Positions 12,413-26,759 of a stretch of 64,000 nucleotides of DNA are shown here, piece by piece (the first letter of the stretch is position 1; the number at the start of each line of letters is the position of its first letter). The notes below the pieces were generated by a model that saw only the letters and a list, made by a program, of their open reading frames with translations, did not search any database and had not been told where the DNA came from. Both the position numbers and the translations under genes were made by a program. This stretch comes from Poseidonibacter lekithochrous (GTDB lineage Bacteria > Campylobacterota > Campylobacteria > Campylobacterales > Arcobacteraceae): NCBI RefSeq assembly GCF_018861145.1, contig NZ_JAHKQT010000023.1, positions 372,001 to 436,000 on the forward strand. The letters run 5' to 3'.

Positions 12413-12440
12413 TTTAAAATAATACAAAGGATTTATCATC

Positions 12441-13319
12441 ATTTTAATAGACCAAGCAACAAAAAAACAATTTAACTCATTTTGTAAGAAAAACAATCCA
12501 AAAGATTTAGAAACTGCAATTGAATACTTTACAGTATTTGGTGGGCTTAATATCGATATTGACATCACTATTCCATTAAAAGAACTAATAGAAACTGAGA
12601 TTCTAGATAAGTATAGATATTTTAAAAACCAAATAAATACAATTACTGGGGGATATAGTGTAGATCAAGCAGTATTAAGTGGTATTGCTTTAGGAGATAG
12701 AAGAACTAACTCATCTTTTAAAAGAGCATTTGTAAGCTTTGAAGAGGGTATGAAATGTGTTGAAGGACTAGTTGAGAGAGGAATTATTGAGATGGAATCA
12801 TCGCAACACTTCTTACTTAATCAAAGAGGCGATAGTAAAATATCTAAAAAGCTTTTATTTACTACACCTTTTTTAAGATTTTGGTTTGCCTTTGTTTCAC
12901 CTATTTATAAAGGTATTAAAGATGGTAACTATAATGAATTTTATAAAAACTATGAAAATAGAAAAGCTGAGTTTACAGGTTTTGTATTTGAAGAGTTAGC
13001 AATGGAATTTCTAAGAGATGCCTATAAAGATGATGAGATTAAAAATATTGGTAAATATTGGGATGATAAAAACAGTATTGATTTAGTAGCTAAAACAAAA
13101 TCAGGAAAAACAATAGCAGCATCTTGTAAATATGTAGATTCAAAGATTAAAAAAAGTGAATTAAACAACTTAAAAAATACTTGTAAAGAAGTAGGATTTG
13201 AAGCTGATATTTATGTATTATTTACTAAAAAAGGCTTTACAAATGAGCTTAAAACTTTAAAAAATGAATCACTAAGATTGTATACTGCAAAAAGTTTTAA
13301 AATATTACTTGATAAATAA
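12441..13319 (+). CDS. DUF234 protein with apparent AUU start
   Basis: A 292-residue protein of the DUF234 group, which in other bacteria is the C-terminal part of archaeal-type AAA+ ATPases and has a nuclease-like fold. The N-terminal part (QATKKQFNSFCKKNNPKDLE, FTVFGG) is helical. The C-terminal half has NIGKYWDDKNSIDLVAKTKS followed by ASCKYVDSKIKKSE, a D...(S)CK arrangement like restriction-endonuclease-fold domains. No in-frame ATG, GTG or TTG exists before 12750, yet coding is well kept from 12441. AAAGG at 12426-12430 precedes ATC (12438) and ATT (12441). From memory, homologues begin M-LIEQA, so the ATT is favoured. Starting at the ATG at 12750 would discard 103 codons. Confidence 0.7.
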   Translation: MLIDQATKKQFNSFCKKNNPKDLETAIEYFTVFGGLNIDIDITIPLKELIETEILDKYRYFKNQINTITGGYSVDQAVLSGIALGDRRTNSSFKRAFVSFEEGMKCVEGLVERGIIEMESSQHFLLNQRGDSKISKKLLFTTPFLRFWFAFVSPIYKGIKDGNYNEFYKNYENRKAEFTGFVFEELAMEFLRDAYKDDEIKNIGKYWDDKNSIDLVAKTKSGKTIAASCKYVDSKIKKSELNNLKNTCKEVGFEADIYVLFTKKGFTNELKTLKNESLRLYTAKSFKILLDK

Positions 13320-13322
13320 AAT

Positions 13323-14396
13323 ATGAATTTAGTAGGACTTGATTATGTGAATGAAAAAGATAAAGAGTTAACAAAACTCTTTATTGAATCAAAGAGCATA
13401 AAAAAATATATCTTAGGAATAAACAAACTTGGGAAAAGTGTATTAAAACATCTTGAAGTTGATGGTATTATCGATGATTTCACAAGAGTTCAAAAATCAA
13501 GAAAAAAAACAGTATTACAAATAGAAGAAGTTCCTAAAGATTCTATTATTCTTACAGTTGCTACAGGAAGTCCTCTTGAAGTAAATATTAAACTAGATGA
13601 GCTAGGATATACACACTTTAACTATTTAGCCTTTATAAAATACTCAAAACTTGACTTAGTTCACCCTCCTTTTATTATGGATTTTAAAGATGATTTTTTA
13701 CAAAATGAAAGTAACTACCAAAAAACATATAATCTTTTAGCTGATAAAAAATCAAAAGAAGTTTTTAAAAAAGTATTAAACTTTAAAATGACTTTTGATT
13801 TAGAGTTTATGAAAGGCTTTACAAACAACTTTGATGAACAGTACTTTGATAAAGACTTAATCCCAGAAATTAAAGATATAAGCTTTTTAGATGGTGGTGC
13901 TTATGTTGGCGATACTCTTCCAAATATAATAAAAAACTTTCCTGATTATAAAAAAATATATTGTATTGAACCAAATAATTTACATTTAAAGATTGCAAAA
14001 AGAGACTTCTCTACTCAAAGAGACATTGAGTTTATAAACTGTGGTCTAGGAAATAAAAAACAAGAAACTAGTAAAACACAAGAATTACAAGATAATTGTG
14101 CACATGACTACCAAGCAGAGAATATTGATACAATAGATAACTTAATAAAAGAAAAAGTAGATTTTATAAAACTTGATATTGAAGGTGCAGAACAAGACAC
14201 CATTATAGGCTCGAAACAAACTATTTTAAATCATCATCCAATATTAGCTATTTGCATCTATCATAAAGCGCAAGATTGGTATAAAGTGCCAGAATTAGTA
14301 CTAGGTATTAGAAATGATTATAAAGTATATATACGCCATTATATGGAAGGTATATATGAAACTGTTATGTATTTTATTCCAAAGGTAGATTATTAA
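13323..14396 (+). CDS. FkbM-family SAM-dependent methyltransferase
   Basis: A 357-residue protein. The N-terminal 170 residues contain a Rossmann-like region (KKYILGINKLGKSVL, IILTVATGSP). The FkbM methyltransferase domain spans about 180-340: ISFLDGGAYVGDTLPNII is the SAM motif, YCIEPNNLHLKIA is motif II, and DFIKLDIEGAEQDTI is the FkbM hallmark. Such enzymes O-methylate sugars or lipids in surface polysaccharide or natural-product pathways; no sugar cluster is seen here. It starts 3 nt after the DUF234 gene and its stop overlaps the proposed AUU start of the AraC gene. Confidence 0.85.
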   Translation: MNLVGLDYVNEKDKELTKLFIESKSIKKYILGINKLGKSVLKHLEVDGIIDDFTRVQKSRKKTVLQIEEVPKDSIILTVATGSPLEVNIKLDELGYTHFNYLAFIKYSKLDLVHPPFIMDFKDDFLQNESNYQKTYNLLADKKSKEVFKKVLNFKMTFDLEFMKGFTNNFDEQYFDKDLIPEIKDISFLDGGAYVGDTLPNIIKNFPDYKKIYCIEPNNLHLKIAKRDFSTQRDIEFINCGLGNKKQETSKTQELQDNCAHDYQAENIDTIDNLIKEKVDFIKLDIEGAEQDTIIGSKQTILNHHPILAICIYHKAQDWYKVPELVLGIRNDYKVYIRHYMEGIYETVMYFIPKVDY

Positions 14397-15207
14397 AAAC
14401 AAAATATTTAAAACAAATAAACTACCTTATCTTGAATTAAGATATATTGATGAAATAATAAGTTGTGATAAAAAGCATCAACATAAAGAACTTACTATAA
14501 CTGCTATTAAAACTGGAAATATAAATATACTATTTAATAATAAGAGTGATTCGTTAAATCCAAATGAAATATCAGTTGTAAATCCCAAAGAGGTTCATTG
14601 TGCTACATTAACTAAAATAAAGAGCTTTGGCTGTTATGTTCTATATATTGATGAGAGTTGGTGTAGATGTATTCAGCAATCATTATTTAATAATATAAAA
14701 TTTTTAAACATAAATAATAGTCTTATTCAAAACCAAGAACATTACAATAATTTTATTGATTTATGTGAGCAATTATTAACTAATGATATTTTATTAATTG
14801 AAAAAGAAGAAAAATTAATAGATTTTATGAACAATCTTTTTTTACAATTTTGTAATAAAAATGCAAATGAAAATGAAAATACTAAAAATACAATATTAGC
14901 TTTAAAAATAAAAGAGTATTTAAAAGATAATATCAATGAAGATATTTTATTAGAAGATATATCAAATGATATGAATTTATCAATCGTACATATCCTAAGA
15001 ATATTTAAAAAAGAGTTTGGCTTACCAATCCATTCGTATATCCTAAATAAAAAAGTTCATCTAGCAAGAAAATTAATATCACAAAATATTCCTATTTCTC
15101 AAGTAGCTCAAACAGCTGGTTTTTTTGATCAAAGTCATCTAAATAAATCTTTTAAAAGAGTTTTTCAACTAACACCAAAAGAATATCAAAAAAACATATT
15201 TTTATAA
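14392..15207 (+). CDS. AraC-family regulator with apparent AUU start
   Basis: A 271-residue one-component regulator. Residues 1-100 form an AraC-type cupin sensing region (LPYLELRYIDEI, KKHQHKELTITAIK, EISVVNPKEVH). The C-terminal 105 residues carry two helix-turn-helix units, with LEDISNDMNLSIVHILRIFK and ISQVAQTAGFFDQSHLNKSF. The frame is open from 14389, but there is no ATG, GTG or TTG before 14827, which lies in the linker. AAAGG at 14381-14385 stands 6 nt before ATT at 14392, which overlaps the FkbM stop (ATTAA). Initiation at AUU would give a full-length regulator; initiation at 14827 gives only the DNA-binding part. Confidence 0.7.
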   Translation: MKNKIFKTNKLPYLELRYIDEIISCDKKHQHKELTITAIKTGNINILFNNKSDSLNPNEISVVNPKEVHCATLTKIKSFGCYVLYIDESWCRCIQQSLFNNIKFLNINNSLIQNQEHYNNFIDLCEQLLTNDILLIEKEEKLIDFMNNLFLQFCNKNANENENTKNTILALKIKEYLKDNINEDILLEDISNDMNLSIVHILRIFKKEFGLPIHSYILNKKVHLARKLISQNIPISQVAQTAGFFDQSHLNKSFKRVFQLTPKEYQKNIFL

Positions 15208-23354: not shown

Positions 23355-23439
23355 CTTTAAATTTAAGATAATATATTGTATTAAATTTAGTCTTAATTTG
23401 GTATTGTTTTTAAATATATCCCATGGTGATACACGACTA

Positions 23440-23600
23440 AATCTATTCTTATTTTAGTTAGCATAATAAATACTTTTGGATTTTTAATAATATTAAATCT
23501 TATTTTATTAAAAACAGCTGGTCTTGTTTAAAAGTGGCAATTCATGACCTGACCCCTATTTCTTGTTTAAAAGTGGCAATTCATGACCTGACCCCTATTT
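23440..23600 (+). mobile_element. Right-half copy of the AGGGGTCAGG element with duplicated end
   Basis: From about 23440 the sequence follows the right part of the elements at 25141 and 26464 (CTTTTGGATTTTTAATAATA, then AAAACAGCTGGTCTTGTT) up to the terminal repeat. The transposase start codon and everything left of it are missing. The last 39 bp occur twice in tandem. This copy lies upstream of both the antitoxin gene (minus) and the unknown two-gene cassette (plus), so it may supply regulatory sequence to either. Confidence 0.65.
23523..23600. repeat. Perfect tandem duplication of a 39-bp element end
   Basis: Units 23523-23561 and 23562-23600 are identical and run from CTTGTTTAAAAGTGGCAA to GACCTGACCCCTATTT. 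Each contains one full terminal repeat. Only two units exist, with no spacers, so this is not a CRISPR array. Confidence 0.9.
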
Positions 23601-23646
23601 CAAACAGGTCATATGTAAAATACTATTTAGAACTATTTTAGATAGA

Positions 23647-24656
23647 ATGTTTAAATATTACAAAAGTTATAAAATTTCTAAAAAAATACCTAAAATGCTT
23701 TCTAGAACATTAAAAGATATTCAAAGTATATCACCCAATAAAAAGAAAATTTCTGCCATGTATGTATATGATATGTTTATTGAAAGAATATATTATCTTG
23801 TTGATTTTAATTTTAATAATGAAGATACAAAAATACTTTATAATAAGATTAATAAAATTATTGAAAAAATGATTATGAAAATAGATATATTGAAATTCCA
23901 ATACCTAAAAATATTTTGGAAAAAGAACTTTTTGAACTTTATTGGTTTAATTCAAGTCTTAAACATAAAGTTATAAGGCCATATTTTGTTAAACTATCTA
24001 TGCGCGATTTAATATATGTATATTTAGATTCTTTGAATTCACACACAACAACATCAAATACTTTCGTAAGAAAATATATTATAGATAATAATTTATCTAT
24101 AGTTTTAACAGAAGATTTATTTAATCCAGTATCTGATTATTTTATAAATTTTATTAAATATGAAATTGATAATGATAAGTTGAACAAAGTTTTATATGAA
24201 ATTAAAACAATACAAGAGTATTTATATAAAGTAAAATATATTTACAAAGAGGATGTAAGAACATTGATTTTTGAAAGTTTAAATAATCCACATTTTAAAA
24301 ATTATATTGTAGATTTAATTCAATTTATGGATTCTTTGAGACCAAAACTATCGAAACTATTCCAAATTCAGTTAGTAAAAAGGTTTATTGAGAATCTTAT
24401 ATCAAAAAATGATATTAATATTTCAATTAATCAAACTTATTTTAAAGGTTTTGATAAATTTAAAGATATTGATATATTATATCTAAATGAAGTTTTAACT
24501 TCAAAAGAAGCTATTCAATACTTGAAAGATTGTATGGATGTATATAAAAATTTAATTAATCAACTGATAGAAATTGATTATTTTAAATATAAATATACTA
24601 TTGATAAATATTTCATCAAGTATGAAAAATATAAAATTACTTTAAATATAAAATGA
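23647..24656 (+). CDS. Unknown cassette protein 1, reading frame broken by a -1 shift
   Basis: Two overlapping frames appear to be one gene. The first runs from the ATG at 23647 and encodes a basic helical start (KISKKIPKMLSRTLKDIQSI). Near the A6 run at 23864-23869 sense passes to the next frame, which continues NDYENRYIEIPIPKNILEKE and on to 24656. One additional A would join them into about 336 residues. The downstream frame has no ATG near its beginning. The product is helical, rich in Tyr, Ile, Lys and Asp, with no membrane segment; I recognise no family. The stop overlaps the ATG of the next gene (ATGA), indicating a two-gene cassette. It may be a pseudogene, a slippage-controlled gene or a sequencing indel. 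Confidence 0.45.
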
Positions 24657-25137
24657 AAAAATATATTTTTTTGATATACCTGTTTATAGATTATCTCGTG
24701 AAGATTATAAAAGTGAGATTAACAAGAATATAAGAAGAAATTATAATAATTTTTTTATGAACAAAGATGGAATAAAAAGAAATAAATTAATTACTTTTGA
24801 AAGCTATTACGAGAAATCAATAAAATATTATGATATCTGGGATTATAACGAAACTATAGGTTATATAAAACTATACACATTAGGAACTCAAGTTAGAGGA
24901 GAATACTACCAACATAAATCAACTAGAATTAGAAAAACTAGAACTAAATCATTTATTTTCAAAACACATAAACTTAGTCCTGAAATAAGTATTCATAATA
25001 AAACTAATTCTGAAATATATATCATAATTTTAGATTATTTGGAAAATTGTAAATTTGAATTAAAAAAAAGATTTATTGATATAAATAATTTTAGAAATAT
25101 TGGACAGTATATTGATTGGAATAAATTAATTGAATAA
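24653..25137 (+). CDS. Unknown cassette protein 2, shift near its start
   Basis: From the ATG at 24653 the frame fails after a few codons. Adding one base in the A6 (24656-24661) or T7 (24666-24672) run gives a continuous protein of about 161 residues. It would begin MKK and continue FFDIPVYRLSREDYKSEI. The undisturbed part from 24757 includes DIWDYNETIGYIKLYTLG, STRIRKTRTKSFIFKT and a C-terminal FRNIGQYIDWNKLIE. Basic, soluble and of no family known to me. It ends 3 nt before the left end of an intact mini-element. Start coordinates depend on whether the shift is real. Confidence 0.4.
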
Positions 25138-25140
25138 ATA

Positions 25141-25436
25141 AGGGGTCAGGTCATGAACTGCCACTTTTAATAATCTTAGATATACTCGAAGAAGAAATCT
25201 TTAAATATCTTGCTATTTCACTTTGCTTATATCCACCACTAAAAACATAAAACAGATGTGTTCTACAATATATATTTTTTTTCTACTGCTCTATTATATA
25301 CATGATGAAATCCTGCTAATTTAATTCTCATTCGTCTTGACATTATAAATCCTTTTGGATTTTTAATAATATTATATCTTATTTTATTGAAAACAGCTGA
25401 TCTTGTTTAAAAGTGGCAATTCATGACCTGACCCCT
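25141..25436 (-). mobile_element. Internally deleted RAYT/IS200-like mini-element, copy A
   Basis: A 296-bp unit with 30-bp terminal inverted repeats (AGGGGTCAGGTCATGAACTG... at 25141-25170, and the complement at 25407-25436, one mismatch). On the minus strand, the ATG at 25343 starts MSRRMRIKLAGFHHVYNRAV, the classic N-terminus of REP-associated tyrosine transposases, and stops after 26 codons. A second frame then gives the C-terminal helix-turn-helix GGYKQSEIARYLKISSSSIS ending in the left repeat. The catalytic HUH and tyrosine region is absent, so the copy is non-autonomous and needs a transposase from elsewhere. Confidence 0.8.
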
Positions 25437-25616
25437 ATTCTAACCCCTATTCTCCTATTCTACTATTCTTTTTGATGGATATAAAAGGTTCATTTCTTAC
25501 TACAAATATTTTGTTTTGTTTTTGAAGTTTATAAACTAAAACTTCTATATATTAAATAATAATTTATTATGCTATTATTTTATTATAAATATAAAGTTAG
25601 ATACAAGGTATAAAAT
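25437..25616 (+). promoter_or_regulatory. Upstream region of the Mrr-like gene
   Basis: An AT-rich interval between mini-element A and the nuclease gene. It contains a 14-codon ORF starting with the ATG at 25569 and ending at a TAA (25611-25613), which overlaps the AAGG ribosome site at 25605-25608 and stops 3 nt before the proposed ATT start. Translation of this leader could deliver ribosomes to the weak start; inference. Confidence 0.3.
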
Positions 25617-26435
25617 ATTAAAGAAGAATACTATTTAATAAAGCAATCATTTCCTCATTTAGATGTAAAAATAAATAAGATTTATTGTCCTACAAATATA
25701 CAACATTTAAAAACATTGATATCCTTTATGATAGGTAGCATAGAAGTATATTTATATAATGAAGAGAATGGACAACGAGAAGATTTAACTGAAAGTTTAG
25801 GTAATAAAAAATTTAATGTGTATGAACATAGATTTGAATTAGTTAGACCAGTAAAAGTTGTATATTCTACTCCTCATTTAAAAAATAAATATCTTTCATT
25901 TTATACACTATCTGATATAAATCCAGATTTTTTACCCAAATTTTTTATGTTTAATCATGTTTATATAATAAAAGGTGGAATAGAACATCAATTCGCAGCT
26001 GATAGAATTAGTTGTAATATAGAAGATCATAATAAAAGACAAACTTATGGTAATGATTATGAAAGATTTATTGCTGATAAATATAAATATAATGGCTATG
26101 ACGTAGAAGATAGAGGAATAAAAAACTCTTTTAATGATGGTGGCTTAGATATTATTGCAAGAAAAGATAATAAACTTATTTTAGTTCAATGTAAAAACTG
26201 GACAATGTCAAATAGTTATAAAATAAATCAGAAAGACATTAGAGCATTTGTAGGAGATTGTTTTTTATATCTACAGAATATTAACTTAGAGGAGATAAAA
26301 GTGTCTTATCATTTTATTGTATCTCATGATAATATATTAACAAAATCGGCAGAGATATTCTTAAAACAAAATACTTTTATTAAATTTAAATGTGTTGCAT
26401 TTCAAGGTGATACTTTGATAAAAGATGAGAAGTGA
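25617..26435 (+). CDS. Mrr-like restriction endonuclease with apparent AUU start
   Basis: A 272-residue protein. The C-terminal half (about 150-272) is a Mrr_cat/restriction-endonuclease-like domain: GNDYERFIADKYKYNGYDVE, then NDGGLDIIARKDNKLILVQC KNW, giving the catalytic D...(E/Q)xK pattern (D in GGLDII, Q-C-K in VQCKNW). The N-terminal 110 residues are of unknown fold. Coding sequence is clear from 25617 (KEEYYLIKQSFPHLDVKINK), but the first normal start is TTG at 25716. AAGG at 25605 stands 8 nt before ATT at 25617. Mrr-type enzymes cut modified DNA; no methyltransferase is nearby. It lies between mini-elements A and B as an independent cargo gene. Confidence 0.7.
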   Translation: MKEEYYLIKQSFPHLDVKINKIYCPTNIQHLKTLISFMIGSIEVYLYNEENGQREDLTESLGNKKFNVYEHRFELVRPVKVVYSTPHLKNKYLSFYTLSDINPDFLPKFFMFNHVYIIKGGIEHQFAADRISCNIEDHNKRQTYGNDYERFIADKYKYNGYDVEDRGIKNSFNDGGLDIIARKDNKLILVQCKNWTMSNSYKINQKDIRAFVGDCFLYLQNINLEEIKVSYHFIVSHDNILTKSAEIFLKQNTFIKFKCVAFQGDTLIKDEK

Positions 26436-26463
26436 TAATAAAATGAATTCATATAATAAAATA

Positions 26464-26759
26464 AGGGGGCAGGTCATGAACTGCCACTTTTAATAATCTT
26501 AGATATACTCGAAGAAGAAATCTTTAAATATCTTGCTATTTCACTTTGCTTATATCCATCAATAAAAGCATAAAACAGATATGTTCTGCAATATATATTT
26601 TATTTCTACTGCTCGATTATATACGTGATGAAAACCTGCTAATTCAATTCTCGTTCGTCTTGACATTATAAATCCTTTTGGATTCTTGATAATATTATAT
26701 ATTATTTTATTAAAAACAGCTGGTCTTGTTTAAAAGTGCCAATTCATGACCTGACCCTA
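26464..26759 (-). mobile_element. Internally deleted RAYT/IS200-like mini-element, copy B
   Basis: A second copy, also about 296 bp, with ends at 26464-26493 and 26730-26759 that have a few more mismatches than copy A. The encoded N-terminus is better preserved: MSRRTRIELAGFHHVYNRAV, continuing past the position where copy A stops before a TGA in FY. The helix-turn-helix part GYKQSEIARYLKISSSSISK is identical in sense to copy A. Both copies share the same internal deletion, so they spread after it arose. Copies A and B flank the Mrr-like gene in the same orientation, giving a compound arrangement. Confidence 0.8.

Follow-up and report, generated by a model that had tools for sequence, protein, structure and literature searches.

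A small set of genes in this Poseidonibacter genome (Arcobacteraceae) appears to start translation at AUU, AUC or AUA (hereafter AUH), where a Shine-Dalgarno (SD) sequence would position the ribosome for weak initiation; such starts seem to be maintained by selection in the DUF234 and CGNR zinc-finger genes and to be of recent origin in an Mrr-like nuclease gene. We assign this reading a probability of roughly 0.68. Three of the genes, encoding the Mrr-like nuclease, a DUF234 protein and an AraC-family regulator, are located in the window, that is, the whole stretch of 64,000 nucleotides that was analysed (G000:C12:372001-436000), within a genome of 2.996 Mb assembled in 44 contigs, which matches to named genomes assign to Poseidonibacter or a close neighbour of it; GC content is 26.7%. 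Initiation at AUU, AUC or AUA explains these three genes far better than any other reading. Comparison of orthologues shows, however, that the conserved AUH starts (DUF234 and CGNR) and the lone AUU states (Mrr-like and AraC) are different in kind: AUH is kept among the orthologues of the former, whereas relatives of the latter have ATG, TTG or GTG. A conserved N-terminus that cannot be reached from a canonical start was found in the Mrr-like gene, in 51 of the 58 genomes with an AUH DUF234 start, and in all 6 of 6 CGNR genes.

AUH codons preceded by SD sequences in a genome sample

Approximately 437 kb of the genome (~15%), comprising 436 ORFs, was scanned for AUH starts. Among ORFs lacking a canonical start for at least 25 codons, 4 of 37 early ATT, ATC or ATA codons have AAGG or GAGG 5-9 nt upstream, compared to only 1.66% of random ATT/ATC/ATA triplets in the genome sample control (Poisson p = 0.004; p = 0.018 against other codons, Fisher's test). 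These 4 codons belong to precisely the 4 genes whose N-termini are supported by homology. The spacing between SD and start is 8 nt in the Mrr-like gene, 6 nt in the AraC gene, and 7 nt in both the DUF234 and the CGNR genes. AUH starts are recurrent in Arcobacteraceae, accounting for roughly 1% of the sampled ORFs, and the AUH-start genes seen encode regulators and nuclease-fold proteins. Gene callers normally do not propose AUU, AUC or AUA starts, so that AUH genes are likely to be truncated or missed in Arcobacteraceae annotations.

Relaxed initiation machinery was considered as a cause of AUH starts and rejected, given that IF3 and the anticodon stem of the initiator tRNA, the two components examined, both look ordinary. 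The infC gene, which starts at AUU, AUC or AUA in many other bacteria, was likewise ruled out as an AUU control because its start in Arcobacteraceae is a conserved TTG (L094-L123, L195).

Conserved AUH starts in DUF234 and CGNR genes

The DUF234 gene (PF03008; 12438-13319, plus strand) begins with ATC at 12438-12440, 7 nt downstream of AAGG at 12427-12430 on the same strand. Previously, the start had been placed one codon later, at 12441, and the gene had been counted among three accessory genes of the window that share AAGG followed by ATT. Relatives that start with ATG have this codon at the position of 12438, and the codon at 12441 varies freely (TTT, TTA or ATA), which places the start at 12438. 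The notion of a single shared accessory-gene pattern is not supported, given that DUF234 is a core gene, near-universal (97 of 104 Arcobacteraceae genomes) and conserved in its AUH start, whereas AraC and Mrr-like genes stand alone among canonically starting relatives. The DUF234 neighbourhood in close relatives is ftsE-ftsX-M23-DUF188.

Across 79 Arcobacteraceae genomes, the DUF234 start codon is ATT in 22, ATC in 21, ATA in 15, ATG in 20, and another codon in 1. Among the 58 genomes with AUH, 57 place the SD at a distance of 6-7 nt, and 51 lack a canonical start before codon 21. On the protein tree, the third base moved between A, C and T at least 22 times, compared to about 4 switches between AUH and AUG, and AUH looks ancestral for the DUF234 start in this family. 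ATC makes up 36% of the AUH starts (21/58) vs. ~8% of the Ile codons in the genome sample. Relatives of DUF234 in neighbouring families likewise show AUH, at positions where the alignment is less sure. Of the 20 sequences with ATG, 13 have an SD spacing of at least 9 nt, compared to 7 nt in most of those with AUH; that AUG is offset by poorer SD spacing was nevertheless rejected as an explanation because the difference comes mostly from one clade and an independent-pairs test lacks power. With AUH kept family-wide, free swaps of the third base and changes to AUG rare, DUF234 presents a clean natural case of what appears to be selected weak initiation, in which the reason for avoiding AUG can be tested directly.

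One more clear AUH case was identified in the ~437 kb sample, namely, a CGNR zinc-finger gene (PF11706) in which AAAAAGGA is followed by ATA. Its orthologues from four genera have ATA or ATT starts in 6 of 6 cases.

A probable AUU start at a putative insertion junction in the AraC gene

The AraC-family gene (14392-15207, plus strand) starts with ATT at 14392-14394, which shares one base with the stop codon of the preceding FkbM gene (TAA, 14394-14396) and is preceded, at 6 nt, by AAGG (14382-14385) formed at the FkbM/AraC junction. In nearly all AraC relatives compared, the aligned codon is ATG; two relatives have GTG, and one has ATG a codon earlier. In close relatives, FkbM ends with IPKK-stop and no AraC gene follows, whereas here it ends with IPKVDY-stop. 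This altered end suggests that the AraC gene was inserted at CCAAAG|G, an event that would have generated the AAGG as well as the overlap of ATT with TAA. Judging from this comparison, the AraC AUU is a lone case that arose at the insertion junction, and coupled reinitiation from FkbM at the ATT is plausible. In a second AraC subfamily, ATA starts were found in 3 of 9 members (G091, G051 and G060), with ATG in others; in G091, an AraC gene located ~1 kb from the DUF234 gene (G091:C2:191420-192241; L213/L257) has an ATA start behind AAAAGGA.

A probable, recently derived AUU start in the Mrr-like nuclease gene

The Mrr-like gene (25617-26435, plus strand) comprises 272 codons in a frame that opens at 25614, after TAA at 25611-25613, with the stop ending at 26435. 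As originally described, AAGG at 25605-25608 is followed, after 8 nt, by ATT at 25617-25619, and the first ATG, GTG or TTG in frame is the TTG at 25716, 33 codons in. The Mrr catalytic domain (PF04471) matches residues 145-214 with 35.4 bits (curated cut-off, 21), and D178 together with Q191-C192-K193, the D...QxK motif, is invariant in the alignment of relatives. Structure models of the Mrr-like and DUF234 proteins are of low confidence (pLDDT of 47 and 51, respectively), and a promoter scan of 25440-26560 around the Mrr-like gene yielded no excess.

Full-length relatives with the same N-terminal part are confined to 5 Arcobacteraceae genomes, including the one analysed here. The ATT aligns with the start codons of three of the other four, none of which has an AUH start: the codon aligned to 25617 is ATG in G065 and G032 and TTG in G029 (L066/L067/L068), and the nearest relative, in G091 (L065; 81% identity), has ATG one codon before the aligned position. 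AAGG also precedes the start at a distance of 6 nt from the ATG of G091 and of 9 nt from the TTG of G029. The N-terminus YYLIKQSFPHLDVKINKIYCPTNIQHLK, which had been called convincing from the single sequence, is conserved across 4 relatives of four genera, and pN/pS for codons 1-32 compared to G091 is 0.047. The coding, conserved codons before 25716 place the true beginning of the reading frame at 25617, with ATT as the sole plausible start.

Compared with its relatives, the Mrr AUU is a derived lone state, which would fit either weak use or a recent loss of expression. Most likely, the AUU serves the gene as a weak start of recent origin: AUG or UUG would have been replaced at the species level, with the full-length nuclease still expressed weakly. 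An alternative that we consider possible but unlikely is that the gene has been silenced or is decaying after loss of its start codon, with ATT a scar rather than a start in use. In favor of decay are the canonical codons of relatives (ATG or TTG) and the ATG to ATA change and 1-nt deletion that separate this genome from G091 near the start, along with a broken second copy of the N-terminal part at L199:2065-2253 (G000:C24; 78% identity, one stop) and the location of the gene between mobile-element repeats. Conversely, the 272 codons are free of stops, the gene keeps an SD at 8 nt from its ATT, Arcobacteraceae evidently tolerate AUH starts, and the changes on the gene's own branch (13 synonymous and 21 nonsynonymous) indicate that it remains constrained by purifying selection.

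The original prediction further noted a leader ORF of 14 codons (25569-25613, plus strand), which is indeed present and stops 3 nt before the ATT, a distance at which termination-reinitiation might bring ribosomes to the Mrr start. Such coupling is very unlikely because the leader is not conserved and is probably a chance ORF, its G091 counterpart having just 3 codons and lying far from the Mrr start; coupling better suits the AraC gene, in which ATT overlaps the FkbM stop. Even less probable is a sequencing or assembly error that turned ATG into ATT: the lone ATT states of the Mrr-like and AraC genes could be read this way, but the conserved AUH cases in dozens of independent genomes cannot be explained by random error, the junction that holds the AraC ATT also shows a changed FkbM end, and more than a single base separates the Mrr-like gene from its G091 counterpart. 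Finally, initiation at TTG 25716, the first canonical codon, with the 33 upstream codons untranslated, is hardly credible in view of the pN/pS of these codons and the canonical starts of relatives ~33 codons upstream.

Proposed weak initiation and comparison to known AUH starts

Under the reading that we favor, a well-spaced AAGG(A) SD would place the 30S subunit at the AUH codon, with which the initiator fMet-tRNA would pair imperfectly, resulting in weak initiation that is discriminated by IF3; protein output would stay low, as the examples of infC, pcnB and the Staphylococcus aureus genes suggest. In DUF234 and CGNR, the AUH start would be retained by selection in different species, probably as a means of limiting the amount of protein. 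It is rather improbable that DUF234, CGNR, some AraC genes and occasional nucleases together form a translational regulon that follows IF3 activity or initiation stringency.

In Escherichia coli, the rare AUU start of infC and pcnB limits expression and is discriminated by IF3. The genes described here may resemble infC and pcnB in having a rare start that limits expression, but the infC of Arcobacteraceae differs from that of E. coli in its start, and autoregulation of the IF3 kind is not implied for DUF234, CGNR or Mrr.

In S. aureus, cvfC1 (AUU), ccpN (AUA) and infC (AUA) combine a strong, well-placed SD with conservation across species, and AUU or AUA starts yield ~10% of AUG expression (PMC13009471). 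The Arcobacteraceae cases are similar in the combination of AUU or AUA with a well-placed SD, in cross-species conservation, and in the regulator-type or zinc-finger nature of the genes (PMC13009471), but they involve other genes in another phylum, their SD is short (AAGGA) rather than extended, and AUC is frequent as well. Furthermore, the S. aureus starts were demonstrated by ribosome profiling and reporters (PMC13009471), whereas those of Arcobacteraceae are known from comparison alone. Weak start codons have been found to go with stronger SDs, and only 1 AUG-to-AUU switch was detected among 61,358 starts (Belinky et al. 2017, PMC5622118); compared to that survey, AUH here appears to be ancestral and maintained in one gene. 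Conserved AUH starts with a strong SD were already known (infC, pcnB, cvfC1/ccpN), and the Arcobacteraceae genes would be new examples; our search turned up no paper that treats such starts in Arcobacter or Campylobacter.

Surroundings of the Mrr-like gene

The Mrr-like gene is flanked by two direct repeats of 299 nt (25136-25434 and 26459-26757) that are 94% identical, the first with near-perfect terminal inverted repeats of 30 nt. A third, partial copy is located upstream, at 23422-23604. On the minus strand, the repeats read like the start of a gene that we take to be a RAYT/Y1-type transposase. The ORF called from ATG 24757 (window positions 24651-25137) can be convincingly extended upstream, with KIYFFDIPVYRLSREDY...; across a run of six A, this extension and ATG 24653 are in different frames, which may reflect a phase-variable gene, a frameshifted gene, or an indel error.
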